Below, piece after piece: positions 12,001 through 31,791 of a stretch of 32,510 nucleotides of DNA. The notes under the pieces were generated by a model. It worked only from the letters and a program-made list of their open reading frames with translations. It ran no database searches and was not told the DNA's origin. Source of the DNA: a bacterium (GTDB taxonomy: Bacteria > Patescibacteriota > Patescibacteriia > UBA9934); contig JAQCKO010000013.1 of the NCBI GenBank assembly GCA_027592325.1, forward strand, positions 1 to 32,510, given 5' to 3'. Position numbers and translations under genes: made by a program. Position 1 is the stretch's first letter. Every line of letters starts with the position of its first letter.

Positions 12001-15000
12001 TCGACAGCGATAATGAAGCCGTTTTCTACACATGGGAAGGAAGCGACACGGACGGGTATCAGTTGCGAACGTGGAATTTACTCGAATCGAATATTGAAGC
12101 TCCGTCAATTGTATTTGAAAGTGGATACGTGGAAGCAAATCCAGGTGCTGCGCCGTGTACGAATTGGGTAAGTGACGAGAGCGGCATTCGCTGCATAGAT
12201 ACCGTGCCAGATATGAATACTGATGCAGCTGCTTGTGATGAATATGCAGATATTTTCACGAATCCCGATTGTCGTGAGTTTTATGACAGCGCGGGAGGAA
12301 TTCACTACCGATTATGGAGTAAGACGGTGAGCGTTGATAATAGTTGTGTAAGCTATCGAAAAACTGATGTATTCGGATTGGGATCTGATACGGATGCTGA
12401 TGGAATAGATGACGGGAAAGAAGTTTGTGAAGCATCGGGAGGACGTTTTAATGACAGCGCGCTTACGTGTCTTTACTACGGACTAGACGTACAAAGTGAC
12501 CGTTGTGGGGCATCTGAAAATGGTTGTCGCGCGTATACCGGCGGACAAAGCGGAAACAGTCGTATTGTATTTGAAGATTATGTTGAGGATGGAACGGTTG
12601 AAAAATGGCAAGCGAGTATTGGATCACCAGCGGATGACGATATTCTTTATAGTAATGAGTCGCTTGCTGCTGATGGGCACTCTGTAGAATTTAGCTCGCC
12701 GGTACTCCGGACGCATTACTTCGACCTTGGTTCGCCTTGTGAGGAAGAAGGGGGCTGTCTTTCGACAGATTATGGCGATGTTTCACGCTCAGGTGGCAGT
12801 TGCCGGATTCCATTCGGGGAGCAAGTATGTGGCGAGCTTGTAGGGGGGATTTTTTCAGGGAAAACGTATACCGTAACATTTCTCGCAAAAGGAAATACAA
12901 CACTCGAAGTACTATTGAAGAATTTCAGCCGTCCTGATACCGAGCTTGTATTTGATGAGCTACAGCTTACGCCAGAATGGAATCAATTTACACTTGGACC
13001 GATTGCGATACCGGACAGCGGTGAATGGGGAGAGAATGAAGCGGTGTCGCTCCTTTTCCGTCATACGGATGGTACAGAAAATACCGTTCATGTAGATAAT
13101 ATTGTCTTGCGTGAAGGGGAAGGAAATCTGTATTTGATTTCTGATTCATGGATTACTCCAGCGCAGTGTGATGCCACACCTGAAGGAGCGCTTGCTCCGC
13201 AATTCCAGCTTGGATGTCAAGAATATACAACGCAATCAGGACAGTTTGCGTATCTCAAAAAATTCACGCGACTTTGCGATGAAAGTAAAGTAGGTTGTGA
13301 TGCATTTTATGCAACACATCAATCAGAATCACCGTATCTATCTCTGCATCGCGCGACCTGTCAAAACCTTGATCTGAATGCAGATGGAGCGCCTGATACG
13401 GCTTTGGTCCGCACAACTTGTCGATTGCTCGCAGAAACAGATGGACTCAGTTTTGACGCAGGATCGCCAGCGCTTTGTGATATGCAGCCAGGTCAGTCAT
13501 CATGCGAATATACATCATCAGATTGGCTGCCAGAAGCTACTATCGTAAATCTTGGTATTCTTGCTGCACACATTGACTACGGTCCTGAAGCCGCATTCGT
13601 TCAAGCGGATCAACCGATTTACATTGTCCTCAATGAAGAGAGTCGTTGTTCTTCTTCAGGTGCTGGGTGTAAGGAACTCGGAAAACCAGCATTCAGCGCG
13701 GATCAAAGTCAGGTGACAGCATTTGAAACGGTGTATTTGAAAGACGATCCGGAACGGTATGACGAAATTCTTTGTTCTTCGGATGAATTATTCTGTGAAG
13801 AGTGGAATTCGACCACAGAAGGAACATGGTATTTCAAAGATCCGGGTGAGCATGCGTGTGAATATCGCACGGGCGTGACGATTGGCGCGACATCGTATGA
13901 TGGATGGTTCCGTACGGGAACATCAGAATTTTGTTATGGAACCGGGACCTGTTCAGATAGCGGTGCTGCTTGTGTCCTCGACAGTGATTGTGCACCATCA
14001 GGTGGGGAATGTGTTGTGACGACAGGAAGCTTCGTGATTGGTGGAACAGAGTCAGGTATTTGGCGTAATGGAGATGCTGGGTATGACGGTTGGATAGGAA
14101 TGTGCGCGCCTGAGTGGAACAGTTGTAAAGTGTTTGAAGATCCGATGGATGTTGATAATGAGCTTGCATACCAATCCTCGGCTGGGGAGATGTATCCTTT
14201 CATTGACAACGATATCTTAAACGATGATAGAAATACGCCGACGGAACGATGTAATGGACAGGTGAGTCAGCAGGAAGGTTGTGTGCTGTTCAATGATGAA
14301 GCAGATGTAGCTCAAAATTATCAAACAAGCGCGACGTATGTTGCGAGCCAATACGCGGATGAATTTTACGGGGAACGTCCATTCGATTTGGTAGATCCAA
14401 TCGACTGTTCGCAGTCCGGCGGAGGCATTGTGAATTATCGCGGTCAGCAAATTGACCTCTGTCAATCGCGTTGCCGCTATCGAACGGCTGATGTGATTAC
14501 ATTCCCAGATGCAGATGATGGATTATTCCAGTTCGGTGGTTCATGTCTTACCAATTTAGATTGTCCTGACGTCGCAGGAGCAATCCCTGGTGAAATGGCG
14601 GAAGGACAGTGTAATAATGCCCTGATAGATGCAAACCGACTTCAGAACGATGCAAACCGTATTTTGAAGGTTACGCGTGATCGTGTCTGTTCAGAGTGGC
14701 TTGCATGTGATGAAGAGCGTCCTGAATGGGATGAATCGATTGGGGCGTACCGAAGCGTTTGTCAGCTGGTAGGACGGTATGAAGATGGCGCTGAGCCAGG
14801 ATTCAATGAGGTCCAGGTGACAGATAGCGTGACGCGCGTGTTGGATATCGATCTTTACACAGCGCGTGAGACAGGTTGGTATGGCGTGGACTATTCAGGG
14901 TATGCGCTTCCTAATCGTTTCTCTGTTGAGCATTTGAGCCAAGAAAATATTGCCTCGCCATTTACATGTGTAAATACGTCTCGTACCGAGGTTGCTTGTG

Positions 15001-17972
15001 ATCCGCTGAATCCAGCAGCCGCTTCATGTGCAGGTGCTTGTGAACGCAATAGTGTGAAGACGTATAGGCTTGCCTTTAATGCAGGAACGTGTGAAGACAC
15101 GCATGGATCAAGCTGTACGGTTGGATTCTGTAGCGACACCGGACGCGCATGTACGAACGATGGGCAATGTAACGATGAAGCATTCTGCGCAACAGGAACC
15201 TGTCTTGAGCGTACCGGGGCTGCTTGTCGATTGGATGAAGATTGTGGCGGTGGCCAGATTTGTGATGGGGGAACATGTGCGATTGAGAGTGGGGCATGCG
15301 GACTTGATTTTGCCTGCCCAGGAGCATCGGTTTGTAATGTTTCGACGGCAGTGAATGAGGGGACATGTTATAACGACCGTTGTTTACTATCGCCTGAAGG
15401 AGAGACATTCGTTGACGCGTTTAGCGTCAGCGAGGTTTGTCGTGCATACCCTGAAGCAAATAGTCCATTTGAAAATAAATTGGTTGAGCAGTGGCAAATT
15501 GAAGATCGTTCCGCACAATCAACAGTGCCGAATCGTTTAGAAAGTGCGCATGTGTATCAAAGCGTTTCTGGGTATGAAGCCGCGAATTTCTGTGCACCAG
15601 GGGAAACCTGTTCATGCTCATATCGTAAAATTGGCAATACCGGGGGATCGCAATATATTGGCGCATCAGGAGCGCCAGACGTTCTTGGAATATGCGAAGG
15701 TGGTGACTTTACCGGTGACTTCTGTTCAGATGAAGAAGATTGTGGCGGGGAAGATGGTCTTACCGAATACTGCCAAGGATTTGATCGTGAAGATACGTAT
15801 TACGGACTTACGGGGTACTGCTTAGAGCGCGACACCAGCATTAATATTGAAGGTGATCAAAATCTTGGGGCATGTATTACCTGGCTCCCGGTAGATGAAT
15901 TACAAGGATCAACCAATATTTACGCAAAAGCCGTTAATGCTGGGGTATTTGATGATGTGTATTACTGTGGAGAGGTACGGACGTATGCAATTGCTCAAAC
16001 TGCAATGGGATGTTCTGCGGTTCGTGGAGAAGATGGCCTCTCACCAGTCGATCCGGCTGACTCAATAACCGATAGAGATAATAGCTGGTGTCAACATACA
16101 GTTGTTTGTCCGAAGGGATATTATGCCATTGTTGGTGGAGCAAAATATCCAGCTATGGATGGTACGGCTTACTGGGCAAATCGCTGTGCAAATTCGGGGG
16201 ATTACTGGGACGGGGGACGAGATGCGTGTCCGTATATGTGTATTCCAGACAATGCATTCACCGATTCAGGTGAGGCGTGTGCAGAGTTATTACCACCGTC
16301 AGATGCAGAGGGATTGGGTGCATATAGGCCTGTAACTAAATCGGGAGACACAGTTGCAAAAACACCCTATCATTATTACGACGATCCACTTGAATTTGAT
16401 GGTTTAGTCGACACACTTGAATCGTGTAAGTCATACGGTCGTGATTTAGAACTAGATAGTATTGGATTGACTGATGCAAACTTACCTTGGCCTTGGTGGG
16501 ATTTGAATGATAGTTGTGGTGATGGATTTGGTAGCTGTAATGAGTACGCAATAGAGCTTCCAACAAGTGATGGAACAGGATATGTAGACTGGGCTGAAAC
16601 ATTCCCCGCATGTCAGAGTGTAATTCAGGTCGCAGCTGATGAGGCCGACCAATATGCCATCGCATATACAAATCGTGTACTTGGCAACGAAGATTATGAT
16701 ATCTTCCCGCTTGATTACGTGCGTACAACAGTGAATGAACCATTTGGTTCGACGCGTAATCCAGATGAGGTGAGTGTTTTAAATGCAGTTGGTATTCCTG
16801 ATCCAACGCCATTGGTCATTCCATATTGCTCTTATGATGATGACATTTTGCCGCCAGACAGCTACGACTCACCGCTAGCATGTTCGATGGGAATTTGTTC
16901 TGTTGCGGAACAGCGCTGTTCGACTGATAGAGACTGTCCGGGAGATGAGTTCTGTATGCGCAAAGGCGACTATTCATCGGGACTGCTAAACACAGGTGAA
17001 ATAGAAGCGCAGTCATATCTAGATTGGTATGCAACGTTTGGTTACTCACCATTTGTTGATCTTCCGCCAGGCGAGCGCAGAGGTGACATAGCGGGCCGGC
17101 TTTCACAAATCTTCGCGGTTCCGCAAAAAATTCGTACATGGGTTTTGGGAGCACTCGGTTCGTATGGACCGGCTGAGGATATTGAAGTAGATGCTGATGA
17201 TTTTGATGACGATTTCTATTGGGATACCCGTGAAGAAAATGGAAATACGGTTCCACAATTACGCGCGCTTGATGTAGAGAATTGTAATGACAGTGGCCTT
17301 TGTCCAGAAGATGCATCACATCCGATGACGATTAATGGCCAAAATGAAGGGTCGGTTATTGCAGAAGGTGGCTTCCTTCGCGCAACGGCGCAATTCTTCG
17401 CCTTTGCTGACCCGAACCAACTGCCGCTGCGTGTAGTAAAAATGGCTTGGGGGGAAGAAGATGGAGCGATATTAGCACCAGGTCTTGATGATTTTTACCT
17501 TAACCATCGCGGACTGACGGGTGGTGGGAGTGCTCAGACAAAATGTGATGACGATACAGGAACATGGGGAACGACCGATGAAAGCTGTACGCCAGGATTC
17601 TTCACCTTCAGAAATGATTACACCTGTGATGCCAGGGATGTCGATCCTGACGTGGGATTGCCGCTTTGTAGTACGTTCGTCGGTGGTGAGCCGACCATTT
17701 TCCAGCCTTGTGTGCGTGAAGTTGATGGCGTAGATGCCTGTGTCTTCAAGCCAGGTGTGCACGTCCGTGATAACTGGGGGTATTGCGCCGGAACGTGTGA
17801 CCTCAATGGCGATGGTGTCGCCGAAGAAGGAGAAGGCTGCTTTAATGCGAGCTTGGAGATTGGCAGTGTAGACGATTCAATCAATCAGTGTAATTACCTT
17901 TTAAAGCCTGGTGGCAGAACTACTGACGATCCGTGGACTTACTATGACGGGGAGATTATTGTGAAACCATAG
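9069..17972 (+). CDS. Giant exported Cys-rich multidomain protein (2967 aa)
   Basis: The N-terminus (residues 1-28, ending HSHA) is a signal peptide; the rest is acidic and very rich in Cys and aromatic residues. Recurring units are C-x5-GC followed by an aromatic or acidic residue (near residues 645, 877, 940, 1145, 1402, 1525, 1736). Two jelly-roll segments resemble carbohydrate-binding modules (about 667-832, NPSFE to DDVQIE; and about 1160-1352, ending VHVDNIVLREG). Calcium-type motifs include DTDADGIDDGKE and DLNGDGVAEEGE. Tandem 25-residue Cys knots lie near 2016-2103. No C-terminal anchor is seen. Exact function is unknown. Similar giant proteins next to VirB6/VirB4-like genes are a feature of CPR bacteria, suggesting an adhesin or appendage component stabilised by disulfides and Ca. 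A hairpin repeat and a terminator follow. Confidence 0.9.
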   Translation: MKHRLLVSIIAILMLMGVSFSPIHSHAQVAGVVTTPFDTHADIAAESATETKRTVGEAIKMGTLWGLTIALLETMQYFADQVAYNAAVWIASGAPGGEPLVEQRPVGDYFLYAGSLFANEVIVELAKADERFVPLQGFGVCTPPNLPALQVGIKSAFQPGDLDICGVEELRENWSGFIGGISKTITNKEERNRVMLNTLKDSFNPNVNAFSVSFGLYTDTLLGAQKEAELNFLKLMVGDSGFKPVVDFITGNVATPASLVSDHVKTQFKKPDEVAQDSATAFIPNGILLQAGHRAASIFTNTLLSELTRKIQNGLFDPIEFDDPFDEFASGTGSRDAAQERLRSILTFSPIGSSNYSLLSEFVTCPSTTRGTARRIYNCVLDASFASAISRSEAGIALTLEEAISQGLINGNWPLIPSGDITANQDPLCYTYGFCHGNLVKMRKARIIPVGWELAAESPQNGGGSYVTLREAMEGFYECNDEGGRDDNNPWCKLIDPNWVLKYPETQCRLLVHGQQLEASGVDSRAQECVDFESCVSENEDGTCNAYGHCIEEENTWTFRGDSCPAEYASCLNFRRSDGKNVSYLSATVDQSGCNASNSGCLWYQDTLTVTDESATFGTIDDVAADDAREDAYLDRVYFTSAVEPCSEGDVGCAELYRRSDTLTLNLVQNPSFEADEDLDGIPDRWTAEDTSVFERREGAGRRGGFGVIANGDLVQYGLRLEQNSFYTLSAFSGRSNDAVPGTADVILSLIGPDGAAPSLEALSISEGCTILDEVAGRYGITMNPSGADLQRFDCTFTVPGSLVSGPFTGVLRMRNTSGTVIIDDVQIEQAAAPTSYTEGYSDAAVTVEYAKLPPVELGCTGGPEDHPNCANYSAICSELDAGCTLYTPTNGNPSVSATVSPADVCDAACSGYDTYKQEPTYYEPEGQFPVYFIAETADACSAADVGCSEFTNLETEEVSYYTYLRACVTETQATTNIDSDNEAVFYTWEGSDTDGYQLRTWNLLESNIEAPSIVFESGYVEANPGAAPCTNWVSDESGIRCIDTVPDMNTDAAACDEYADIFTNPDCREFYDSAGGIHYRLWSKTVSVDNSCVSYRKTDVFGLGSDTDADGIDDGKEVCEASGGRFNDSALTCLYYGLDVQSDRCGASENGCRAYTGGQSGNSRIVFEDYVEDGTVEKWQASIGSPADDDILYSNESLAADGHSVEFSSPVLRTHYFDLGSPCEEEGGCLSTDYGDVSRSGGSCRIPFGEQVCGELVGGIFSGKTYTVTFLAKGNTTLEVLLKNFSRPDTELVFDELQLTPEWNQFTLGPIAIPDSGEWGENEAVSLLFRHTDGTENTVHVDNIVLREGEGNLYLISDSWITPAQCDATPEGALAPQFQLGCQEYTTQSGQFAYLKKFTRLCDESKVGCDAFYATHQSESPYLSLHRATCQNLDLNADGAPDTALVRTTCRLLAETDGLSFDAGSPALCDMQPGQSSCEYTSSDWLPEATIVNLGILAAHIDYGPEAAFVQADQPIYIVLNEESRCSSSGAGCKELGKPAFSADQSQVTAFETVYLKDDPERYDEILCSSDELFCEEWNSTTEGTWYFKDPGEHACEYRTGVTIGATSYDGWFRTGTSEFCYGTGTCSDSGAACVLDSDCAPSGGECVVTTGSFVIGGTESGIWRNGDAGYDGWIGMCAPEWNSCKVFEDPMDVDNELAYQSSAGEMYPFIDNDILNDDRNTPTERCNGQVSQQEGCVLFNDEADVAQNYQTSATYVASQYADEFYGERPFDLVDPIDCSQSGGGIVNYRGQQIDLCQSRCRYRTADVITFPDADDGLFQFGGSCLTNLDCPDVAGAIPGEMAEGQCNNALIDANRLQNDANRILKVTRDRVCSEWLACDEERPEWDESIGAYRSVCQLVGRYEDGAEPGFNEVQVTDSVTRVLDIDLYTARETGWYGVDYSGYALPNRFSVEHLSQENIASPFTCVNTSRTEVACDPLNPAAASCAGACERNSVKTYRLAFNAGTCEDTHGSSCTVGFCSDTGRACTNDGQCNDEAFCATGTCLERTGAACRLDEDCGGGQICDGGTCAIESGACGLDFACPGASVCNVSTAVNEGTCYNDRCLLSPEGETFVDAFSVSEVCRAYPEANSPFENKLVEQWQIEDRSAQSTVPNRLESAHVYQSVSGYEAANFCAPGETCSCSYRKIGNTGGSQYIGASGAPDVLGICEGGDFTGDFCSDEEDCGGEDGLTEYCQGFDREDTYYGLTGYCLERDTSINIEGDQNLGACITWLPVDELQGSTNIYAKAVNAGVFDDVYYCGEVRTYAIAQTAMGCSAVRGEDGLSPVDPADSITDRDNSWCQHTVVCPKGYYAIVGGAKYPAMDGTAYWANRCANSGDYWDGGRDACPYMCIPDNAFTDSGEACAELLPPSDAEGLGAYRPVTKSGDTVAKTPYHYYDDPLEFDGLVDTLESCKSYGRDLELDSIGLTDANLPWPWWDLNDSCGDGFGSCNEYAIELPTSDGTGYVDWAETFPACQSVIQVAADEADQYAIAYTNRVLGNEDYDIFPLDYVRTTVNEPFGSTRNPDEVSVLNAVGIPDPTPLVIPYCSYDDDILPPDSYDSPLACSMGICSVAEQRCSTDRDCPGDEFCMRKGDYSSGLLNTGEIEAQSYLDWYATFGYSPFVDLPPGERRGDIAGRLSQIFAVPQKIRTWVLGALGSYGPAEDIEVDADDFDDDFYWDTREENGNTVPQLRALDVENCNDSGLCPEDASHPMTINGQNEGSVIAEGGFLRATAQFFAFADPNQLPLRVVKMAWGEEDGAILAPGLDDFYLNHRGLTGGGSAQTKCDDDTGTWGTTDESCTPGFFTFRNDYTCDARDVDPDVGLPLCSTFVGGEPTIFQPCVREVDGVDACVFKPGVHVRDNWGYCAGTCDLNGDGVAEEGEGCFNASLEIGSVDDSINQCNYLLKPGGRTTDDPWTYYDGEIIVKP

Positions 17973-18180: not shown

Positions 18181-18210
18181 TCGTCATTCTTGCGAAGAGC
18201 GGGATCCATC
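18181..18210 (+). repeat. Short palindromic intergenic repeat (REP/dRS3-like), degenerate
   Basis: TCGTCATTCTTGCGAAGAGC followed by GGGATCCATCG is a diverged copy of the family seen at 6715 and 30182. It abuts the inverted-repeat element that begins at 18208. Confidence 0.55.
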
Positions 18211-18314
18211 GAATAGATCCTTCACTATGTTCCCGGCGGAGTCACGGCGGAGCCGGACGGGCCGGGCAGGCAAGAATTTGTAAATTCTCGAGCGAAGCGA
18301 GAGATCTATTCGAT
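18208..18314. repeat. 107-nt MITE-like element with perfect 12-bp terminal inverted repeats
   Basis: ATCGAATAGATC (18208-18219) and GATCTATTCGAT (18303-18314) are perfect inverted repeats. Between them are further small palindromes (GAATTTGTAAATTC, CTCGAGCGAAGCGAG). The right 45 nt (18270-18314) recur in diverged form at 30107-30152. There is no coding capacity. The next part of the gap, to 18398, is AT-rich pyrimidine-biased sequence with no recognised feature. Confidence 0.6.
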
Positions 18315-18398: not shown

Positions 18399-18434
18399 AA
18401 AAGCAAAAGACCCCACCTCCGAAGAGATGGGATC
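18399..18434 (-). terminator. Rho-independent terminator of the minus-strand lipoprotein gene
   Basis: Read on the minus strand, an 11-bp stem (GATCCCATCTC / GAGGTGGGGTC, two wobbles) is closed by a TTCG tetraloop and followed by TTTTGCTTTT. It sits 18 nt past the stop codon. Confidence 0.85.
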
Positions 18435-18452
18435 GAGACGGGTGCGGAGCTG

Positions 18453-19142
18453 TCAGGTGCTCCAGCACTCGATGAAGTCGAGGTCGTCCGGGAACGCATC
18501 AGTCGTGTAGTCGAACACGAACCCGTTCGCGGTGAACTCCTCGTTGAGGATGATCGGTGTCCCGATGTCATCGCCGGTGTCACCGACGATGTCGAAGTTG
18601 GTACCGTTGACCACCAGCTGCGCCTGCGACCAGAGCTTGTCGATCTGGAAGTAGGTGCTATCGATGATCGCGACGTCCGGGTTGTTGAACTCGATCACGC
18701 GACCATCGTACATGGTACGACGGCAGGACATATCGCCCCAGCGTCGGCTGTAGTTCAGGTCGAATGCTTCTTCGGTCACCTGATCGGCGACTACGGTCAC
18801 CTCGATCTCGGGGATGCCGAACTTCTTGCCGTCACGGTCGTGCAGCGGCAATCCGTCGTGGCTCAGGTCGGTGATGTCACCGACGGTCACCGTGTGGGTG
18901 CCCGTCGAGACCGTGATGTGCTCACCAGTGTAGCCAGCGAACTTGCCGTTGACGTTGACCATGCAGTCTTCGGGCGAACCATCGATCGCGGCGTGGACCA
19001 GCAGGGTGCCGGTCTCACCGTTCCCGGCGGGCGTCGTCACGTCCGAGCCATGCGGCCCGGTCGTGGACACCTGCGGAAGGCGGTTCACGTAGCAGCCCAT
19101 GACCACGAGGGCCATGAACGAAAGCGTGGGGTTGAAACGCAT
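18453..19142 (-). CDS. Putative lipoprotein, function unknown
   Basis: The 229-residue protein begins with a lipoprotein signal peptide (MRFNPTLSFMALVV) and the lipobox VMGC with Cys17. The mature part is rich in beta strands and acidic residues and contains a GTHTVTVGDITDL segment like PEGA-type beta domains; I do not recognise a family. The start is fixed by the Shine-Dalgarno site GAGGAG 6 nt upstream; an upstream GTG at 19202 lacks one. It has its own consensus promoter and terminator. Base composition is about 60% GC in one 60-nt line counted by eye, against about 47% in a host-gene line. It looks foreign compared with its neighbours. Confidence 0.8.
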   Translation of the reverse strand: MRFNPTLSFMALVVMGCYVNRLPQVSTTGPHGSDVTTPAGNGETGTLLVHAAIDGSPEDCMVNVNGKFAGYTGEHITVSTGTHTVTVGDITDLSHDGLPLHDRDGKKFGIPEIEVTVVADQVTEEAFDLNYSRRWGDMSCRRTMYDGRVIEFNNPDVAIIDSTYFQIDKLWSQAQLVVNGTNFDIVGDTGDDIGTPIILNEEFTANGFVFDYTTDAFPDDLDFIECWST

Positions 19143-19148
19143 GGGGGA

Positions 19149-19154
19149 CTCCTC
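19149..19154 (-). promoter_or_regulatory. Shine-Dalgarno site deciding the lipoprotein start
   Basis: GAGGAG on the minus strand ends 6 nt before ATG 19142. It is a textbook site, unlike the SD-less starts of most genes in this window. Confidence 0.8.
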
Positions 19155-19219
19155 GTGGGCCAAGGGCCCGTTTAATGAACGTTTGCAAACCCGGTATTTC
19201 ACGAGTTTGACTCATAATG

Positions 19220-19248
19220 TTTATACCAAATATAGCCAAAATTGTCAA
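19220..19248 (-). promoter_or_regulatory. Consensus sigma70 promoter of the minus-strand lipoprotein
   Basis: On the minus strand, TTGACA (19248-19243), a 17-nt spacer and TATAAA (19225-19220) form a near-perfect promoter. Transcription near 19213 gives a leader of about 70 nt that contains the Shine-Dalgarno site. Confidence 0.8.
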
Positions 19249-19530
19249 TGATTGTGAAAAAAGTCTCGGTTTGCGGAGGGGTGATGGGATAGGGTTTAGG
19301 AATATATTCACAAAACATGTATTTTCTTAACATTTTCAGCTTTTTACAACTTTTGACAGCTTAAAATAATTCATCCACAGCCGTTGTTGAAGCCTTTCGA
19401 CAGCTTTTTGTTGGTGTCGTTGATCGAAAAAGGGGTGTGCTGAAGGCCTTCGACAGGTTTTGCGAATATTGGCCCAGGTATCTCTTGTCGTTCTTCGGCA
19501 AAACCGATGCAATGGAAGTAGAAAGTCATG
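19249..19530. other. Gene-free AT-rich intergenic stretch
   Basis: No gene is supported. It contains pyrimidine-rich runs and repeated phrases of the form CTTTCGACAG / CTTCGACAGG (near 19395 and 19448), typical of low-complexity intergenic repeats. A hairpin GAAAGT-CATGC-ACTTTC near 19530 begins the structured leader of the next gene. Confidence 0.4.
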
Positions 19531-19745
19531 CACTTTCAGAAACCTACTGATGGTCTGGGGCGGCTCTATTTTGGCAAGGGGTAGAGATTATCCAACGCAT
19601 TGGGGGATTCGAACGACTTCTAAGGGAGTGGAAGTCACACCTTCATATGTTCCGGGGGCCTATGGGCCCCTTAGGGAACATCTATGCAAACGCTACCTCG
19701 AGACGGCAACCGCCATTCCCCTCGAGTTAGGGCTTGCATAGAGCA
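19528..19745 (+). ncRNA. Highly structured leader upstream of the M23 lipoprotein
   Basis: Several strong helices occur in series: GAAAGT/ACTTTC, CTCTA/TAGAG, CCAA/TTGG, GACTTC/GAAGTC, then TGTTCC-GGGGCC / GGCCCC-GGAACA (19648-19682), and TATGCAA...CTCGAG / CTCGAG...TTGCATA (19682-19741). The last ends about 15 nt before the Shine-Dalgarno site. It may be a cis-regulatory leader or an independent RNA. It does not match tRNA or tmRNA, and no family is recognised. Confidence 0.4.
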
Positions 19746-19758
19746 GCCCAGTACCTTC

Positions 19759-19765
19759 AAAGGAG
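19759..19765 (+). promoter_or_regulatory. Shine-Dalgarno site deciding the M23 lipoprotein start
   Basis: AAAGGAG lies 5 nt before ATG 19771. It selects this start over the in-frame ATG at 19684, which has no such site and falls inside the structured leader. Confidence 0.85.
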
Positions 19766-19770
19766 AACCC

Positions 19771-21561
19771 ATGCAGATTACGCACATTGCGGCTGCTTTC
19801 AAGCTCATTCTGACGTGCTCCGGCATTATGCTGCTCATGGGCTGCGCGCCTAAGTGGTGGACCGACACCATGATGTCGCCTCCTGGCGTTGCATCTGAAG
19901 AACGCGCGCTCGAGTACGAGACGAAGACGGTTCATATGCCCTTTGATCGCGGGTATCGCACGCTTTGTGTGCAAGGTCCTGGCGGGAGCTACTCGCATCG
20001 TGCGTTCTCGACGGCACATGACCTCGATTTCGATACACCGAATGATCGCGACGATCCCGTCTTCGCCCCGGCAGCCGGAACGCTGCGGGTGCATGGACGC
20101 GAGGTCGATACGGGAGGCTTTGGCCTTCACGTGAATATTGACCTTGGTGACGAGACTTACATTGTTCTCGCACATCTGCGTGACGTCTTCCTTGAAGATG
20201 GAGCCCAGGTGGCAGCTGGTCAGTTGATCGGCTTTGAGGGAACGACGGGCCGTTCTACGGGTGATCACGTTCACATGGGTCGTCACAGCGGCCTGGCGTC
20301 TCGACCGGCAGAGTATGGCGAGTCCATTCCGGATCTGTCGTTGTACTTTGAAGACGTGACGTTGGGGACAGCGGGCGAGCAGCGCGTTTCGGCATTCGAA
20401 TGCGCGCTTCCTGGCGGGCATGTGTATGAATCGCAGATGGCGACGCCACGCTGGCATCCAAATGGCAGCCTGCTCAAGCATCCGGCAAGCCCCGACGTCT
20501 TCTTGCTCGAAGACGGACGGCTCCATCACCTCGCAGACGAAGAAGTCTTCTGGGAGCGTGGGTATCGGTTCGCAGATCTCGCTCTTATTACGGCAGCCGA
20601 GATGGCCTGCTATGAAGAAGGGGAGATCATTCGAGAAGGGGGTGTGTTACGCGCATTCAGGGTGCATGATGGTCGGCAATTCCTGCAAACGACGTGGGAT
20701 GATGCTTGCTACATCCTTCCGCGTGTGCACTGGGAAGCAGTGCTCGAAACCTGGGGAATTGCCGTCCCTGCGGAAGGCCTTGAGCGTACCGATGCCTATC
20801 TTCATGACTGCATGATGGATGCGCCGGCACAGTTTCGTGAGGGGACGCTCGTTAAGGAGACTTCACGAAGTGACGTGTATGCCATTACAGATGGAGTGGC
20901 TATGCCGATTGCAAGCTGGGATACGTTCCTGCTGCTCGGATTCGGAACGAGGACGATTTACACGGTTCCCGATGGAGCAATCGCTTCTGTCATGGGACGT
21001 GTAGGAGACTGTGCAGCGGATGTACATTGCATCACGCGCGCGCAAATCGAAACCTGTGGAGGCGGCACACTTGGTGCTGCCGGTGGAGGAACCGATGAAG
21101 AAACTGCACGCGCTGATTCCGCGGTGGATGCAGAAGCGCACGATTCACACGATGATGATGCGCCGGGCGCAGATTCGGGTGTCGCATCCTCGTCGCCGGA
21201 TGATCCAGACCAGCTGAGGATTCTCTGGCGTGGCGATGACGTATATGATCGCATTTCACTTTCAGGTGAGTTCACCGGCGCTGTCGGTGGGTTTTCGGAA
21301 GGGTGGGTGCCTCATCTTGCCGTGGTCGCATCGGCATCGCAAATCGAGTACCTGCGCTCCATGGAGCGCTTCGATACGCTTCGATTCTCGGTGGAATTCG
21401 AGGTTGACGGACGCATGTCTTGGTCGTGCCTCGCGCCATTTCCCCCCGGATTACAGCAAGGAGAGGTCTTTGCGTTCGCTGGGGACATTCCGCTCGAAGT
21501 AGTGCCGGTCGCCGATCCGGAAAGTGCCGGTTGCGGCCTGATGGTCACCTTCGATTACTAG
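19771..21561 (+). CDS. Lipoprotein with M23 (LytM-type) peptidase domain
   Basis: The 596-residue protein has a lipoprotein signal with LMGC and Cys25. Residues about 70-175 are an M23 metallopeptidase-like domain: HDLDF (83-87, candidate zinc ligands H83 or H76, and D86), VFAPAAGTLRV, YIVLAHL with His135, VAAGQLIGFEGTTGRSTG, and the HxH pair H166/H168 (GDHVHMG). M23 enzymes cut peptidoglycan cross-links. The first ligand motif is not canonical, so activity is uncertain. Residues about 231-420 carry repeats of the form LLKHPASPDVFLLEDG and LVKETSRSDVYAITDG. An acidic linker (430-480) and a C-terminal beta domain follow. The gene shows the higher GC and strong Shine-Dalgarno site of the island. 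It may remodel the wall of the cell itself or of a host. Confidence 0.85.
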   Translation: MQITHIAAAFKLILTCSGIMLLMGCAPKWWTDTMMSPPGVASEERALEYETKTVHMPFDRGYRTLCVQGPGGSYSHRAFSTAHDLDFDTPNDRDDPVFAPAAGTLRVHGREVDTGGFGLHVNIDLGDETYIVLAHLRDVFLEDGAQVAAGQLIGFEGTTGRSTGDHVHMGRHSGLASRPAEYGESIPDLSLYFEDVTLGTAGEQRVSAFECALPGGHVYESQMATPRWHPNGSLLKHPASPDVFLLEDGRLHHLADEEVFWERGYRFADLALITAAEMACYEEGEIIREGGVLRAFRVHDGRQFLQTTWDDACYILPRVHWEAVLETWGIAVPAEGLERTDAYLHDCMMDAPAQFREGTLVKETSRSDVYAITDGVAMPIASWDTFLLLGFGTRTIYTVPDGAIASVMGRVGDCAADVHCITRAQIETCGGGTLGAAGGGTDEETARADSAVDAEAHDSHDDDAPGADSGVASSSPDDPDQLRILWRGDDVYDRISLSGEFTGAVGGFSEGWVPHLAVVASASQIEYLRSMERFDTLRFSVEFEVDGRMSWSCLAPFPPGLQQGEVFAFAGDIPLEVVPVADPESAGCGLMVTFDY

Positions 21562-21566
21562 CTCTA

Positions 21567-21596
21567 AGCCCCGTTGAGGATATCGACGGGGCTCTT
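21567..21596 (+). terminator. Probable terminator of the M23 lipoprotein gene
   Basis: AGCCCCGT (21567-21574) and ACGGGGCT (21586-21593) form a perfect 8-bp stem with an 11-nt loop 5 nt past the stop codon. The following T tract is weak (CTTAC). Confidence 0.6.
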
Positions 21597-21664
21597 ACAA
21601 TTCATTGATCTTTCGACTCAGGAAATTAACCTATTTTCTCTTGCATACATCAAGAAACTCACCA

Positions 21665-21681: not shown

Positions 21682-24399
21682 ATGCTCATGCTTTTACGCG
21701 CGCTAAAACGTAGCGTAACAAACCTCAAGCGACACAAAATCGCGGAACTGTTTATGGTCGTCGCGGTTATTCTGGTTCTGCCCGATTTTGCGTTTGCAGC
21801 AGATCCAGATCGCAGCATGATTTCGCAGGGGCTTGAGATTTTTATCTCGTTCTTTGGGCAAATGCTGACCGTTGTTGCCTATGCCATTGGTCAATTGATT
21901 ATTTTGGTCATTGGAACCATTGTTGTCCCAATTCTTGGCTATAACGATTTTGGCGCAAGTCCCGTGATTGGCCTTGGTTGGTCACTTGTGCGCGATGTGG
22001 TAAATATGTTCGTCATTATCGTCATTCTTTACATGGCGTTTTTGACCATTATTGGAAATCCAAAAGCGAATATTCAACAGCAACTTCCCAAATTACTCAT
22101 GGCGGTCGTGCTGCTCAATTTTTCGAAGACGATTACGCTACTTATTGTCGATATTGGTCAGGTGGTCATGATGACCTTTGTAAATGCGATTCAAGACATT
22201 GCGATTGGGAACTTTGTTCAATTATTCGGCGTTAATGAGTTTTTCTCGCTGAGCGCTGATGCAGGGGTAAATGCCGCGCTTAATGGTGGATACGATGCCG
22301 GTGTATTTACCGCAACCGCTTATGCAACCGTTGCGCTGATGATTATGGTTTTGGTGATTCTGCTCATCCTCGCCGCGGCGTATTTGTACCGCATTATTAT
22401 GATTTGGGTACTTGTCGTCATGTCGCCGCTTGCCTGGTTTATGAAGGGAGCGGGAGATTTATTTAGCGCCGGTGGAGGTGTGTATCAGCAGTGGTGGAAG
22501 CAGCTATCAAGTGTGGTTATTCTGGGTCCCGTGCTCACGTTTTTCCTTTGGCTTTCGCTTGCGGTGGCAAGCGAAGGAAGTCTTGCTTCTGCAGCGGGGT
22601 TCGATTCTCTGCGCGCAACGGATTTTACGACGGGGCTTGTGACGTCACCGCTTGCCGAACAAGATCGCTTTTTAAGCACTTTACTTGCGATGATTCTTCT
22701 TGTAGTTGGTCTTCGCGCTTCTGGTCAATTTTCAGAGGGATTTGGTGAAATTGGAGAGCGCTACTTGAACGAAGGGTTTGGGCAAAAGCTGCTGAAAGGG
22801 GCGGTTATGGCTCCGGCGAAGGGTGCGCGTAAGACAGCAAGGCTTGGAGCGGGCGCGTTCAAAGCTGGGGGAAATTTTGCCTTGAAGTATTCGAATGTTG
22901 GAGAAGATATAGGAAAAGTACTTGGTGTTGACGCAGCAAATACAGCTCGTAACGCACTTCAATGGCTCCCTGGTGGTAATGCCATTGCGGGCACTGTCGC
23001 GGGCGGTCTTGCGAGTGTTGGAGCTGGTATGACAGGTGCAGGTGTTGCGGCAAAAATGGCGGCTCGCAAAAAGAGGAAAGAACGCGCCGGAAAATTATCT
23101 CAAGCACAAAAGGCACAAGAACTTACCGGAATGGTCGACGCAGAGGGAAAACCAAATTACATGTCGCCTGGAGCACGACAGGTGCAGTATGAGTTGCTTG
23201 GGAATTTGGCGACAGACGATAAGCTACAAGATGAGCTTAAGGCTCAACTTGAGAATAAGTATCGCTTGGCAGGTCGTACAGATTGGGAATCGCATGCAAA
23301 TACCCAGTTTGAGACGATGATGGCAGATTCACTGAAGTATGTGAAGGCAAATGAAGATGATCTCATTGAAGGAGAAGGGGCCAAGAAGGGTCTTCTTAAG
23401 ACACGTGCAAAGTACATGCATCATTCAGCAAGTAATGAAATCGAAGAAATCATGAATGATGAGAACTTCAAGCTTAATATGATCGAGCCAGAGGCACTTG
23501 AAGATTCACGTGTCCGAGCGATTGTTGAAAAGAAACTTGGTTCCATTGTGACGGGATACTCAATGCGCGATGGTCAGCGAGTTGCAAATACGATGCTTGA
23601 TGATTTGAAAGCCGGTAAAGGTGTTTCTTCGGGTGTGCAGAAAATGATTTCTGGCGAGCGAGATGCAAAAGCGATAGACGCAACTGCTATCCCGACGGCG
23701 TCTCAAGCTGACTTGGCTAAGGCATTACGATTCAAGAAAAACTCTATTGACGGGATGACGGACGCACATATGACAGCAGCGGGCTCAAATGTTGTTGATG
23801 CCATCATTGATTCCGAAGTCAGAAACTTCTCAGATATGCAAGTGGCCGCTCGTGCGGAATTATTGAGACAGGTCGAGAGCAAGCGGAATGATACATCGCT
23901 TAGTGTTGAAATGCGTCAAAAGGCGAATCAGGCCTACATTCAGCTTGCGCCTGATGCTTCAGCATCGGTTGTTGGTAACCCCGCCATGAAAGCATTTGGA
24001 CTCAGTGCTGGTGCATTCGCTGGAACCCGTGGTGGGCTTACAGCTGATCAGAAGCGTGATGCTTTCGGTGCCGAGTTACAGCGAGACGTAACCTTGCTTA
24101 AGAAGCGTTCAATTGGTGAGCAAATTACAGCCAGTGCTTCAAATGAGCTTTCACGGGAGGTGATGAAGGTTGTCGATAGACAGTCTCTTCAAAAGTTGCT
24201 GAATGAATATCAAAGTGGTCTCACAGATGCATCTGGAAAAGCAGACATTGCAACGACGGTTGAGACGATTCAAAAGGCAATTGCTGCTGAATCTACAAAA
24301 CCGGTTGGAAATGCTGCAGGACAACTTACGCAGAAACAGTATAATACTCTCAAAGATCTTGCTCGCGATGCTTCGCTTATACGGCGTCAAATGACTTAA
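21682..24399 (+). CDS. VirB6/TrbL-like polytopic membrane protein
   Basis: The 905-residue protein begins with a hydrophobic segment ending FAFA-ADPD that looks like a cleavable signal. About six to seven further hydrophobic helices follow up to roughly residue 350 (for example IIVILYMAFLTII, VALMIMVLVILLILAAAYLY, FLSTLLAMILLVVGL). The rest, about 370-905, is Ala/Lys-rich, soluble and helical. The order of helices and the PLAWFMKGAGD region resemble VirB6/TrbL pore proteins of type IV secretion systems as found in CPR genomes. It would form the inner-membrane channel. It opens a tightly spaced five- or six-gene run ending at 29819. The long cytoplasmic tail is unusual for VirB6 proper. Confidence 0.8.
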   Translation: MLMLLRALKRSVTNLKRHKIAELFMVVAVILVLPDFAFAADPDRSMISQGLEIFISFFGQMLTVVAYAIGQLIILVIGTIVVPILGYNDFGASPVIGLGWSLVRDVVNMFVIIVILYMAFLTIIGNPKANIQQQLPKLLMAVVLLNFSKTITLLIVDIGQVVMMTFVNAIQDIAIGNFVQLFGVNEFFSLSADAGVNAALNGGYDAGVFTATAYATVALMIMVLVILLILAAAYLYRIIMIWVLVVMSPLAWFMKGAGDLFSAGGGVYQQWWKQLSSVVILGPVLTFFLWLSLAVASEGSLASAAGFDSLRATDFTTGLVTSPLAEQDRFLSTLLAMILLVVGLRASGQFSEGFGEIGERYLNEGFGQKLLKGAVMAPAKGARKTARLGAGAFKAGGNFALKYSNVGEDIGKVLGVDAANTARNALQWLPGGNAIAGTVAGGLASVGAGMTGAGVAAKMAARKKRKERAGKLSQAQKAQELTGMVDAEGKPNYMSPGARQVQYELLGNLATDDKLQDELKAQLENKYRLAGRTDWESHANTQFETMMADSLKYVKANEDDLIEGEGAKKGLLKTRAKYMHHSASNEIEEIMNDENFKLNMIEPEALEDSRVRAIVEKKLGSIVTGYSMRDGQRVANTMLDDLKAGKGVSSGVQKMISGERDAKAIDATAIPTASQADLAKALRFKKNSIDGMTDAHMTAAGSNVVDAIIDSEVRNFSDMQVAARAELLRQVESKRNDTSLSVEMRQKANQAYIQLAPDASASVVGNPAMKAFGLSAGAFAGTRGGLTADQKRDAFGAELQRDVTLLKKRSIGEQITASASNELSREVMKVVDRQSLQKLLNEYQSGLTDASGKADIATTVETIQKAIAAESTKPVGNAAGQLTQKQYNTLKDLARDASLIRRQMT

Positions 24400-26175: not shown

Positions 26176-26628
26176 ATGTCAAATCAATTTGTTGTTCCAC
26201 AATTCCTTGATGTCGAGACGAAAATCATTGGCCCAATCACCGCTCGTCAATTCATCATTTTGCTCGCAACGATTCTTGCGGAATTTGTCATTTACCGCAT
26301 TTTTTTGAGTATTATTCCGATTCTCCTTTTTGGACTTCCAACGCTTGCAATTGGTGTTATTTTTGCGTTCGCAAAGGTGAACGGGCAACCGTTTCATTAC
26401 ATTGCGCTTAATATGGTGCAAACATTTCGTCGACCACGCTTGCGGGTTTGGGATAAGCGAATATCAGATGCTGTGCTTCGTGCTTCATTGAAAAAGGACG
26501 AGCAACCAGAACCTCCTAAGCCACCTGTGAAACCCCCGATCGAAGGCTCACGGCTTTCCGATATGTCGCTCATTGTGAACACTGGTGGAGTGTATCAGCC
26601 AGACAAACCGCTCTATGGCAAAGGCTAA
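26176..26628 (+). CDS. PrgI family membrane protein
   Basis: The 150-residue protein starts with a polar stretch containing VPQFLDVETKIIGPIT, the hallmark beginning of PrgI-family proteins. Two adjacent hydrophobic helices (about 24-43 and 45-64) and a basic cytoplasmic tail follow, with a Pro-rich segment (about 115-124). PrgI proteins are small components of Gram-positive type IV secretion and conjugation systems and usually sit beside VirB4/TraC ATPase genes, as here. It overlaps the next gene by 14 nt if that starts at 26615. Confidence 0.85.
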   Translation: MSNQFVVPQFLDVETKIIGPITARQFIILLATILAEFVIYRIFLSIIPILLFGLPTLAIGVIFAFAKVNGQPFHYIALNMVQTFRRPRLRVWDKRISDAVLRASLKKDEQPEPPKPPVKPPIEGSRLSDMSLIVNTGGVYQPDKPLYGKG

Positions 26629-27324: not shown

Positions 27325-29271
27325 ATGGCAATTGAGATTGAACAATTAGAACAACGCGAAGATCGTCGACGCGAAAATGCTCCAAAGCCGATGACGGAAA
27401 AGGAGCAGCGTGTTGCCGAAGAACGTGCCACACTCGAGGAGGAGCGCGTGTATCGGCAAGGAACAATTGCGGTACGTGATTTAATCGCGCCATCATCTTT
27501 TGATGTAAAGCCAGATTATTTGCAGCTAGGGACGAAACTCCTCCGGACCGTTTTTGTGATTACCTATCCTCGTTACGTTGGCATAGGGTGGGGAGCGCCG
27601 ATTATTAATTTCAACGCGACCATAGATATTGCGTTATTTGTCTATCCTGTTGACTCACAAGTTATTTTGAAGCAGTTGCGGAATAAAGTAGGGGTCGTTC
27701 AAGCACAAATTTTTTCTGACAATGAAAAAGGTGCTCCACGCGATCCGATTCGTGAAACCGCTCTTCGCGATATGGAGCAACTGCGCGACGATTTGACCCA
27801 AGGCATTGAACACTTTTTTCAATTTGGGTTTTACGTGACAATGTATGCCGATTCAAAAGAAGAGCTTGATAAACTTACCGATAACATAGAATCGATTTTT
27901 GGATCAAAGCTTATCTACTCAAAGCGCGGATTATATCAATCAGAGCAAGGGTTTAATTCTACTATGCCGCTCGGTAACGATGAACTCATGATCGCGTTTA
28001 ACATGAATACGTCGCCGATTGCGTCGTCGTTTCCATTTATTTCTTCTGATCTTACAAGCGACAAAGGGATTCTCTTCGGAATCAATCGTCACAACAATTC
28101 ATTAATTCTCTTCGATCGATTCTCACTTCAGAATGCAAATTCGGTTGTATTTGCAACATCAGGTGCCGGAAAGAGTTATGCTGTGAAGCTCGAAGTTCTT
28201 CGCTCACTGATGATGGGAACCGAAGTGATTATCATTGACCCAGAAATGGAGTATCGAACACTTTCTGATGCTGTTGGTGGGACGTACGTTAATGTTTCTC
28301 TTGCGTCGGAAGGGAAAATTAATCCTTTTGATTTGCCTCGACCGGTAGGAGAAGAAGGGTCGGTAGAAGATATCTTGCGTAGCGCTGTCATTACACTGAA
28401 GGGACTGTTGCGTATTATGATCGGTCTTCCGACCGGAAAGGATGGTGAGCGAGGATTTACCCCTTCCGAAGATTCAACCCTCGACCGTGCGATTATTGAG
28501 GCGTATGCAAAGAAAGACATCACTCCCGATTTAACCTTTAAGGATTTAGAAACGGCAGAAGAGCCGGTATTGCAAGATTTGCAAGAAATTCTTGAAGGAA
28601 TGGAAGGAGCGCAAGATTTAGTTGACCGATTGAAAAAATATACGGAAGGAACATTTTCAGGACTTCTGAACTCGGCCACGAATGTAAAAATGGATAATCA
28701 GCTTGTGACTTTTTCGGTACGCGACCTTGAGGACGAATTGCGACCAATGGCGATTTATACCATCATCAATTATATTTGGAATGTTGTCCGGTCAAATAGA
28801 AAAAAACGTATTTTGGCGATTGATGAGGCGTGGTGGCTTATGCAGCACGAAGATTCAGCAAAATTTATTTTCGCCCTTGTGAAACGTGCGCGTAAATACT
28901 ATCTTGGCGTTACAACAATTACGCAGGACGTGAATGATTTTCTCACGAATGCATATGGACAAGCAATCGTGACAAACTCATCTATGCAGCTTCTCATGAA
29001 GCAATCACCGTCCGGTGCAGATCTTGTGGCGAAAACGTTTAATCTGACACAAAGCGAAACATATTTGCTTCTCGAAGCGGCTGTAGGAGAGGGAATTTTC
29101 TTTGCCGGGCAAAAACATGCGGCGATTCGTATTGTGGCAAGCTATACCGAAGATCAACTTGTGACAACGAATCCAGAGCAGTTGCTCGAGATTGAGCGTG
29201 CGAAGAAAGAGTTTGAGGAATCATTTGGTGGGGAAGATATTGCGTCGAAAGGCGCAGGTGAACTGAAATAA
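27325..29271 (+). CDS. VirB4/TraC-type secretion ATPase
   Basis: The 648-residue protein energises type IV secretion at the cytoplasmic face. A charged coiled N-terminus (1-45) is followed by a VirB4-type domain and a RecA-like motor: Walker A in ATSGAGKSYAVK (G280-S284, Lys283), IIIDPEMEY, Walker B in RILAIDEAWWLM (D500, E501), and the TTITQDVNDFL sensor (about 529-540). It starts 2 nt after its N-terminal-like partner, with GAAGGA upstream as one of the few Shine-Dalgarno-like sequences in the host genes. Motifs are intact, so it is probably active. Confidence 0.92.
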   Translation: MAIEIEQLEQREDRRRENAPKPMTEKEQRVAEERATLEEERVYRQGTIAVRDLIAPSSFDVKPDYLQLGTKLLRTVFVITYPRYVGIGWGAPIINFNATIDIALFVYPVDSQVILKQLRNKVGVVQAQIFSDNEKGAPRDPIRETALRDMEQLRDDLTQGIEHFFQFGFYVTMYADSKEELDKLTDNIESIFGSKLIYSKRGLYQSEQGFNSTMPLGNDELMIAFNMNTSPIASSFPFISSDLTSDKGILFGINRHNNSLILFDRFSLQNANSVVFATSGAGKSYAVKLEVLRSLMMGTEVIIIDPEMEYRTLSDAVGGTYVNVSLASEGKINPFDLPRPVGEEGSVEDILRSAVITLKGLLRIMIGLPTGKDGERGFTPSEDSTLDRAIIEAYAKKDITPDLTFKDLETAEEPVLQDLQEILEGMEGAQDLVDRLKKYTEGTFSGLLNSATNVKMDNQLVTFSVRDLEDELRPMAIYTIINYIWNVVRSNRKKRILAIDEAWWLMQHEDSAKFIFALVKRARKYYLGVTTITQDVNDFLTNAYGQAIVTNSSMQLLMKQSPSGADLVAKTFNLTQSETYLLLEAAVGEGIFFAGQKHAAIRIVASYTEDQLVTTNPEQLLEIERAKKEFEESFGGEDIASKGAGELK

Positions 29272-31702: not shown

Positions 31703-31791
31703 TGGCGGAGAGGGAGGGATTCGAACCCACGAGGGCTATTAACCCTGACGGTTTTCAAGACCGTTGCATTCAACCGCTCTGCCACCTCTCC
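31703..31791 (-). tRNA. tRNA-Ser (anticodon UGA)
   Basis: The minus strand shows acceptor GGAGAGG / CCTCTCC, discriminator G and an encoded CCA. The anticodon arm CGGTCTTGAAAACCG has loop CTTGAAA with anticodon TGA. A long class II variable arm follows, then GGGTTCGAATCCC. It reads UCA and related serine codons. It lies 4 nt after the stop of the GIY-YIG gene and is followed by a terminator. Confidence 0.96.

Follow-up and report, generated by a model that had tools for sequence, protein, structure and literature searches.

The window analysed here is a contig of 32,510 nt (JAQCKO010000013.1) from a draft genome of Candidatus Uhrbacteria (Patescibacteria, class ABY1; 826 kb in 21 contigs, 46.2% GC), and relatives of its proteins are found in Candidatus Uhrbacteria metagenome-assembled genomes (MAGs). 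It carries a type IV secretion system (T4SS) locus in which two divergently oriented lipoprotein genes, both with MGC lipoboxes, lie between a giant gene and a VirB6-like gene: a divergent lipoprotein gene on the reverse strand (18453-19142) and, on the forward strand (19771-21561), a gene for a lipoprotein with a peptidase M23 domain. An initial annotation, which had recognised this pair correctly, took it for a GC-rich island acquired from elsewhere. Our results indicate instead that the two lipoprotein genes form a conserved module of the T4SS locus in Uhrbacteria, a reading to which we assign a probability of roughly 0.72.

One line of evidence is the position of the genes across the order. 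Of its 60 genomes, 48 have an orthologue of the M23 lipoprotein (threshold E<1e-30; genome counts tallied from the search tables) and 55 have VirB4. Both genes are present in 46 genomes: in 35 of these they lie on one contig and on the same strand, with M23 upstream, and in the remaining 11 they are found on separate contigs of fragmented assemblies; in relatives the M23 gene mostly stands directly before VirB6. The place of the divergent lipoprotein is likewise occupied, as an iterated profile recovered one open reading frame (ORF) per locus, at the same place and divergent to M23, in 30 of 30 distinct recruited loci. This comparison of the site with relatives had been named beforehand as the test that could refute acquisition, and it found the places of both lipoproteins occupied across the order; since relatives have M23 at the corresponding site, acquisition as an island is the wrong reading. 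The same comparison bears on a chimeric assembly or contamination, which the abrupt composition steps and the draft state of the genome, with its 21 contigs, might suggest. However, the order giant gene, lipoprotein, M23 and VirB6 is repeated in independent assemblies, and because such synteny recurs in dozens of them a chimeric join is excluded for practical purposes.

The history of the M23 gene agrees with its position. Trees of M23 and VirB4 (quick-search trees with some long branches) have 9 of 28 splits in common, the family-level split included, against a random mean of 0.12 and a maximum of 2, and the M23 gene has been inherited mainly vertically, with some exchange within the order likely. 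When 84,980 species were scanned by alignment, 44 of the 46 relatives were Uhrbacteria or unplaced MAGs of Patescibacteria type and the other two matches were weak and confined to the domain; the scan used two peptide patterns, so remote M23 relatives could be missed. Plasmid and phage searches with M23 returned generic M23 domains only, and those with the divergent lipoprotein gave no match. Transfer of M23 from an outside donor was rejected on the grounds of the order-wide synteny and of the absence of a donor lineage from the scan.

The compositional jump that had prompted the island claim is real. Estimated by eye at about 60% versus 47% GC, it was computed as 0.612 for the divergent lipoprotein gene and 0.578 for the M23 gene versus 0.474 for the VirB6-like gene and 0.472 for the giant gene, and only about 1% of the 1-kb windows of this genome reach 0.57. 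Relative to 477 ORFs of the same genome, GC at third codon positions (GC3) is 0.857 in the divergent lipoprotein gene (z +5.7) and 0.581 in the M23 gene (z +2.1), against a background of 0.42. The GC and codon profiles that the initial annotation had called for are aberrant in both genes, codon usage mainly in the divergent lipoprotein. The region is nevertheless not GC-rich as one block: the DNA between both genes has a host-like GC content of 0.463 (0.412 in its upper half), the gap ahead of the VirB6-like gene has 0.417, and the intergenic mean of this genome is 0.459. GC is 0.57 before the M23 stop codon and 0.43 after it, the divergent lipoprotein has comparable GC edges, and the edges match the transcription unit, leader and terminator region included. 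GC-richness is limited to the lipoprotein transcription units.

This elevation is itself conserved. In 31 of 31 relatives, M23 has a higher GC3 than the T4SS core genes (mean difference +0.20, range per genome +0.01 to +0.40; Wilcoxon p 9e-10), and at four-fold sites M23 lies above the core in 29 of 32 genomes, the window counted, by +0.19. The divergent lipoproteins exceed the core in GC3 in 22 of 25 cases, with values of 0.58-0.93 save in one AT-rich genome. A recent insertion does not explain an elevation that is order-wide and stops at the gene edges. Nor is the region bracketed by a pair of repeats, as had been claimed; the clear repeat at about 18181-18313 (strand not assigned) is dispersed through intergenic DNA, with some 45 partial matches across the genome, often nested or inverted, and is not specific to the lipoprotein region. 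The tRNAs of the window lie only at 31703 and 32159, and no integrase was recognised among its ORFs. Recent horizontal acquisition of a GC-rich island would account for the GC3 of 0.86 and 0.58 against 0.42 and for a codon usage unlike that of the host and of GroEL, mainly in the divergent lipoprotein. It is nevertheless a very improbable explanation, given the same place across the order, the broadly congruent M23 tree, the conserved elevation, the host-like DNA between the genes, the missing repeat pair, and the lack of a donor lineage or of any phage or plasmid match.

The M23 gene, preceded by a Shine-Dalgarno (SD) sequence, AAAGGAG (19759-19765), encodes a protein of 596 aa that consists of a signal peptide, a lipobox with Cys25, the M23 domain, repeats, an acidic linker and a C-terminal beta domain. 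The catalytic domain (20041-20283, forward strand; Pfam match at aa 91-171) is well above the Pfam cut-off for PF01551 (E 1.3e-14; 54.6 bits versus 28.7). C25, which follows a hydrophobic segment, and H76, D86, H166 and H168 are invariant in 15 of 15 aligned orthologues, with S75, D84 and D88 beside the latter; the metal ligands were assigned from the alignment and general knowledge of the family. An AlphaFold model (predicted local distance difference test score, pLDDT, 79) contains a LytM-like domain, well-modelled repeats and the C-terminal beta domain, and the nearest fold to the M23 domain in Foldseek is S. aureus LytM (2b13, 28% identity). The protein thus resembles LytM, MepM and ShyA in catalytic fold and metal-site residues, but differs from them in domain architecture and in its first metal motif, which has the form SH-(9)-D instead of HxxxD, and its scores against the NCBIfam equivalogs fall far under the cut-offs. 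The repeats (WHPNGSLxK..PxVYLLEdG..hlxxeexFwerGY; aa ~218-430, 20422-21060, forward strand) were defined by alignment and are modelled with a pLDDT of ~95; a WHPNGSLxK-type repeat is also present in a second protein of this genome. A structural match of the repeats to EccB1 was too weak to use (E 2.6e-4, root-mean-square deviation 29 over the whole alignment). The wall-cutting M23 enzyme suggested by the initial annotation is supported as a prediction, and both proteins have the features of lipoproteins and are probably exposed at the surface.

VirB1 and PrgK are wall hydrolases that open peptidoglycan in conjugation, and SLT and CHAP domains mark them. As with these enzymes, the window has a putative cell-wall hydrolase gene in a conjugation locus of Gram-positive type (CD1110-family VirB4, PrgI), beside VirB6 and VirB4. 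The window protein differs in that it is a lipoprotein with a single M23 domain, repeats and a C-terminal beta domain, and no SLT (lytic transglycosylase) or CHAP domain was found in it by Pfam and NCBIfam scans; it is therefore classed as a protein predicted to work like PrgK/VirB1 and not as a member of that group. With its invariant anchor cysteine and catalytic residues, the most fitting reading is that of a wall hydrolase tethered to the membrane, in the PrgK/VirB1 role; its co-location with VirB6 and VirB4 and the known biology of PrgK and VirB1 suggest that it would open the wall. A 2025 survey of Patescibacteria T4SS, in the passages available to us, describes homologues of VirB1, of which some carry additional Peptidase_M23 domains, and notes that other enzymes may stand in for VirB1; those passages do not describe an M23 lipoprotein of the window architecture in Uhrbacteria (PMC12102498). 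In one relative (G025), where the M23 leader is unstructured (z -0.13), a second short M23-like lipoprotein ORF (L058:4331-4948) lies immediately before the M23 lipoprotein.

The divergent lipoprotein gene encodes 229 aa with the lipobox VVMGC. On its strand (reverse) we read a promoter with TTGACA (19248-19243), a 17-nt spacer and TATAAA (19225-19220), an SD sequence, GAGGAG (19149-19154), and, directly 3' of the gene, a terminator-like hairpin with a T tail (18409-18434; 11 pairs, 6 GC), although the region as a whole has no more terminator-like sites than expected by chance. As far as these elements can be read from the DNA, the gene is a free-standing unit. The strong SD site and consensus sigma70 promoter that the initial annotation had set apart from the host genes are both there, but the promoter type is common to ordinary host genes; the MGC lipobox is likewise shared by the two window proteins, but is no signature, as relatives have SGC, AGC, TGC, GGC and others in this position. 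A direct sequence search found homologues of the divergent lipoprotein in G002, G006 and G015 only. The ORFs recruited by the iterated profile almost always have a recognisable lipobox; when signal peptides were removed in a leave-out hidden Markov model (HMM) test, the profile of one family failed to recognise the other. We therefore do not claim that the divergent lipoproteins form one protein family, since their position agrees in 30 of 30 loci while their mature sequences fail this test. A PEGA domain in the N-terminal part was weak and below the Pfam cut-off (15.3 versus 20.8 bits, E 0.019), and a structure model with a pLDDT of 43 was set aside. By these comparisons, position and architecture are conserved and the mature sequence is hypervariable. 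Given its hypervariability and predicted lipid anchoring, the protein is most likely a host-facing surface factor. In the sister family, at L060, L062, L065, L073 and L061, a GC-rich gene resembling Ser/Thr kinases and a secreted partner lie between the divergent lipoprotein and M23, adjoining a serS-like gene.

The leader of the M23 mRNA is structured. In the window it folds into a hairpin H1 (19615-19636, forward strand; GACTTC-TAAGGGAGTG-GAAGTC, with the loop GGGAGUGG at 19624-19631), a second GC-rich hairpin (TGTTCCGGGGGCC..GGCCCCTTAGGGAACA, 19648-19680) and a hairpin H2 (19681-19742; loop CCAUUCCC at 19713-19720), whose arms are 86% complementary and which ends 16 nt before the SD sequence. 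Compared with shuffles, the minimum free energy (MFE) of the 130 nt before the M23 start has a mean z of -2.64, with 22 of 33 leaders below -2 and the window at -4.85, and M23 leaders fold better than those of other genes in the same loci (z -3.01 versus -1.62, p 3e-5). In the sister family, a 64-nt leader hairpin (e.g., L065:6378-6441(+) and 23 other loci) could be aligned across 24 genomes, where 90.6% of the cells are paired, versus 26-45% when the alignment is slid. Ten of its 16 pairs have changed on both sides (40 compensatory cells; 0 of 500 shuffles as high), and G-U exceeds A-C (43 versus 5), which favours a sense-strand RNA over a DNA dyad. A covariance model of this hairpin found it in 22 of the 60 genomes, with a second locus in none of them, and directly upstream of M23 wherever the position is comparable. 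Of its 24 apical loops, 22 are perfect palindromes, with four different sequences (AGAUCU, AGGCCU, AGUACU and AACGUU), although the kinship of the genomes makes for fewer independent events.

Rfam 15 gave no match at E<=1 in the window, nor at E<=0.1 in four relatives. The M23 leader resembles riboswitches and dimerising hairpins in being a hairpin directly upstream of the SD of one gene (covarying in the sister family), and dimerisation hairpins in its palindromic apical loops, and differs from known structured leaders in lacking an Rfam match. By its covariation, the sister-family leader is a conserved structured RNA and a candidate new RNA family. In the window's own family, a GGGAG(T) hairpin occurs in the same leader in 11 further loci, and the sister-family model gives four weak hits, two of them inside leaders. 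The loop GGGAGUGG of H1 is complementary to the loop CCAUUCCC of H2, and this complementarity is kept in 12 genomes; covariation of the pairing was not supported, as matched loops, picked by hand, did no better than mismatched ones (p 0.39). An H1 hairpin (GGGAGT loop) that is mobile or regulon-wide was rejected too, with four hits in the genome, no more than for control hexamers.

Several observations weigh against a conserved module tied to the T4SS. The co-occurrence of M23 and VirB4 across the genomes is just marginally significant (46 with both, 2 with M23 only, 9 with VirB4 only, 3 with neither; Fisher p 0.05), and the M23 enzyme may serve the ordinary growth of the cell wall and merely be co-located with the T4SS. 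Seven pairs of well-supported splits clash between the M23 and VirB4 trees, which makes some exchange of M23 inside the order likely. Homology between families is not demonstrable for the mature parts of the divergent lipoproteins, and the leave-out failure leaves room for replacement of this gene at a fixed site. Finally, the sister-family RNA model fails to match the window's own leader.

On the module reading, the M23 protein would be exported, lipid-anchored outside the cell membrane, and would cut peptidoglycan where the T4SS must pass, in the cell's own wall and/or that of the contacted host cell. The divergent lipoprotein would be expressed from its own promoter as a host-facing surface factor, and the folded leader would limit or time the production of the hydrolase, since an unregulated hydrolase would be dangerous. 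Tentatively, the leader may represent a new cis-regulatory RNA family, present once per genome at the M23 gene, in which kissing loops would gate ribosome access to a wall hydrolase that has to be held back until the secretion machine encounters a host: two transcripts could kiss through the palindromic apical loops in the sister family, and two hairpins of one leader (GGGAGUGG with CCAUUCCC) in the window's family.

As to the GC-richness, we propose that it is a lasting property of a gene class, which would be maintained by selection on the codons or the RNA composition of these particular genes or by exchange within the order. About 40 ORFs of this genome, mostly small and unrecognised and several of them secreted, form a GC-rich class (GC3 > 0.58 versus 0.42), although a few with the highest values could be antisense artefacts; examples are C9:11974-12447, C6:625-1389, C21:10837-11238 and C9:25567-26274 (genome G000), and many members have their own TTGACA promoter and a strong SD. 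TTGACA is enriched upstream of GC-rich genes (13 of 36 versus 30 of 290), but ordinary genes use the same promoter type, and a special promoter class was rejected. With about 300 kb sampled per genome, GC-rich genes form a large tail in G040 and are almost absent from its close relative G042, and the GC3 of M23 follows (0.75 versus 0.46; M23 is not elevated in G042). Two GC-rich ORFs at contig starts of G040 (L193:68-514 and L202:70-831) have their first eight residues, MTNICARP, in common and then diverge, a pattern that resembles different genes set behind one repeated start.

Such a class would suit recurrent replacement, in which the sites are old and the genes, the divergent lipoprotein above all, are swapped with alleles from a GC-rich pool that keeps their composition high. 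The hypervariability of the divergent lipoproteins beyond recognisable homology, the strong tree conflicts of M23 and the contrast between G040 and G042 speak for this possibility, which we still regard as doubtful: M23 is congruent at the family-level split and in many subclades, no outside donor was found for it, and fast divergence by itself can erase homology. Compositional selection or a gene-specific bias without transfer, with the codons or transcripts of the class selected to be GC-rich, would explain why the edges coincide with the transcription unit, and the per-genome elevations of the two genes correlate (rho 0.76, a value inflated because both differences share the core term). This explanation seems unlikely, as GroEL, normally highly expressed, is not GC3-rich (0.42), a value on which codon selection by expression level was rejected as the source, and as G- and C-ending codons both rise, unlike in typical translational selection. 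The large GC-rich (lgr) genes of Protochlamydia amoebophila, leucine-rich-repeat paralogues with host-like codon usage to which a foreign origin was attributed, offer a parallel as GC-rich genes in a lower-GC symbiont, one of them near a tra unit (PMC2216083). Unlike in lgr, the elevation seen here is order-wide and marked at synonymous sites, and the descent of M23 is largely vertical.

The rest of the locus is that of a T4SS. Its gene content comprises the giant protein, the divergent lipoprotein, the M23 lipoprotein, the VirB6-like protein, one more protein, PrgI, VirB4 and ComF, a set that agrees with the T4SS surroundings described for class ABY1, where comF is close by, in the passages available of the survey (PMC12102498). 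The giant gene (9069-17972, forward strand; 2967 aa) is the left neighbour, and its homologues adjoin the lipoproteins in relatives; the protein is Cys-rich and conserved in place, with weak domain matches only (DUF7107; a gene transfer agent spike fibre below the cut-off). The VirB6-like gene on the right (21682-24399, forward strand), of ordinary GC, was named from its position and its homologues in the conserved locus, and its protein has no Pfam family match. PrgI (VirB3-like; 26176-26628, forward strand) matches PF12666 (E 1.2e-9), and the VirB4 ATPase of the CD1110 family (27325-29271, forward strand) exceeds the cut-off of NF045971 in NCBIfam and has a TraG P-loop match in Pfam.

The T4SS of Uhrbacteria (ABY1) is thought to be used on host bacteria, and the M23 lipoprotein is a concrete candidate for its missing VirB1-type hydrolase. 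The M23 leader adds a defined conserved RNA in a group in which little is known of regulation. Horizontal transfer is the routine reading of a jump in composition, and the M23 gene is an order-wide counterexample; given that a largely vertical gene stays GC-rich beside normal neighbours, island calls based on composition will mislead in Patescibacteria.

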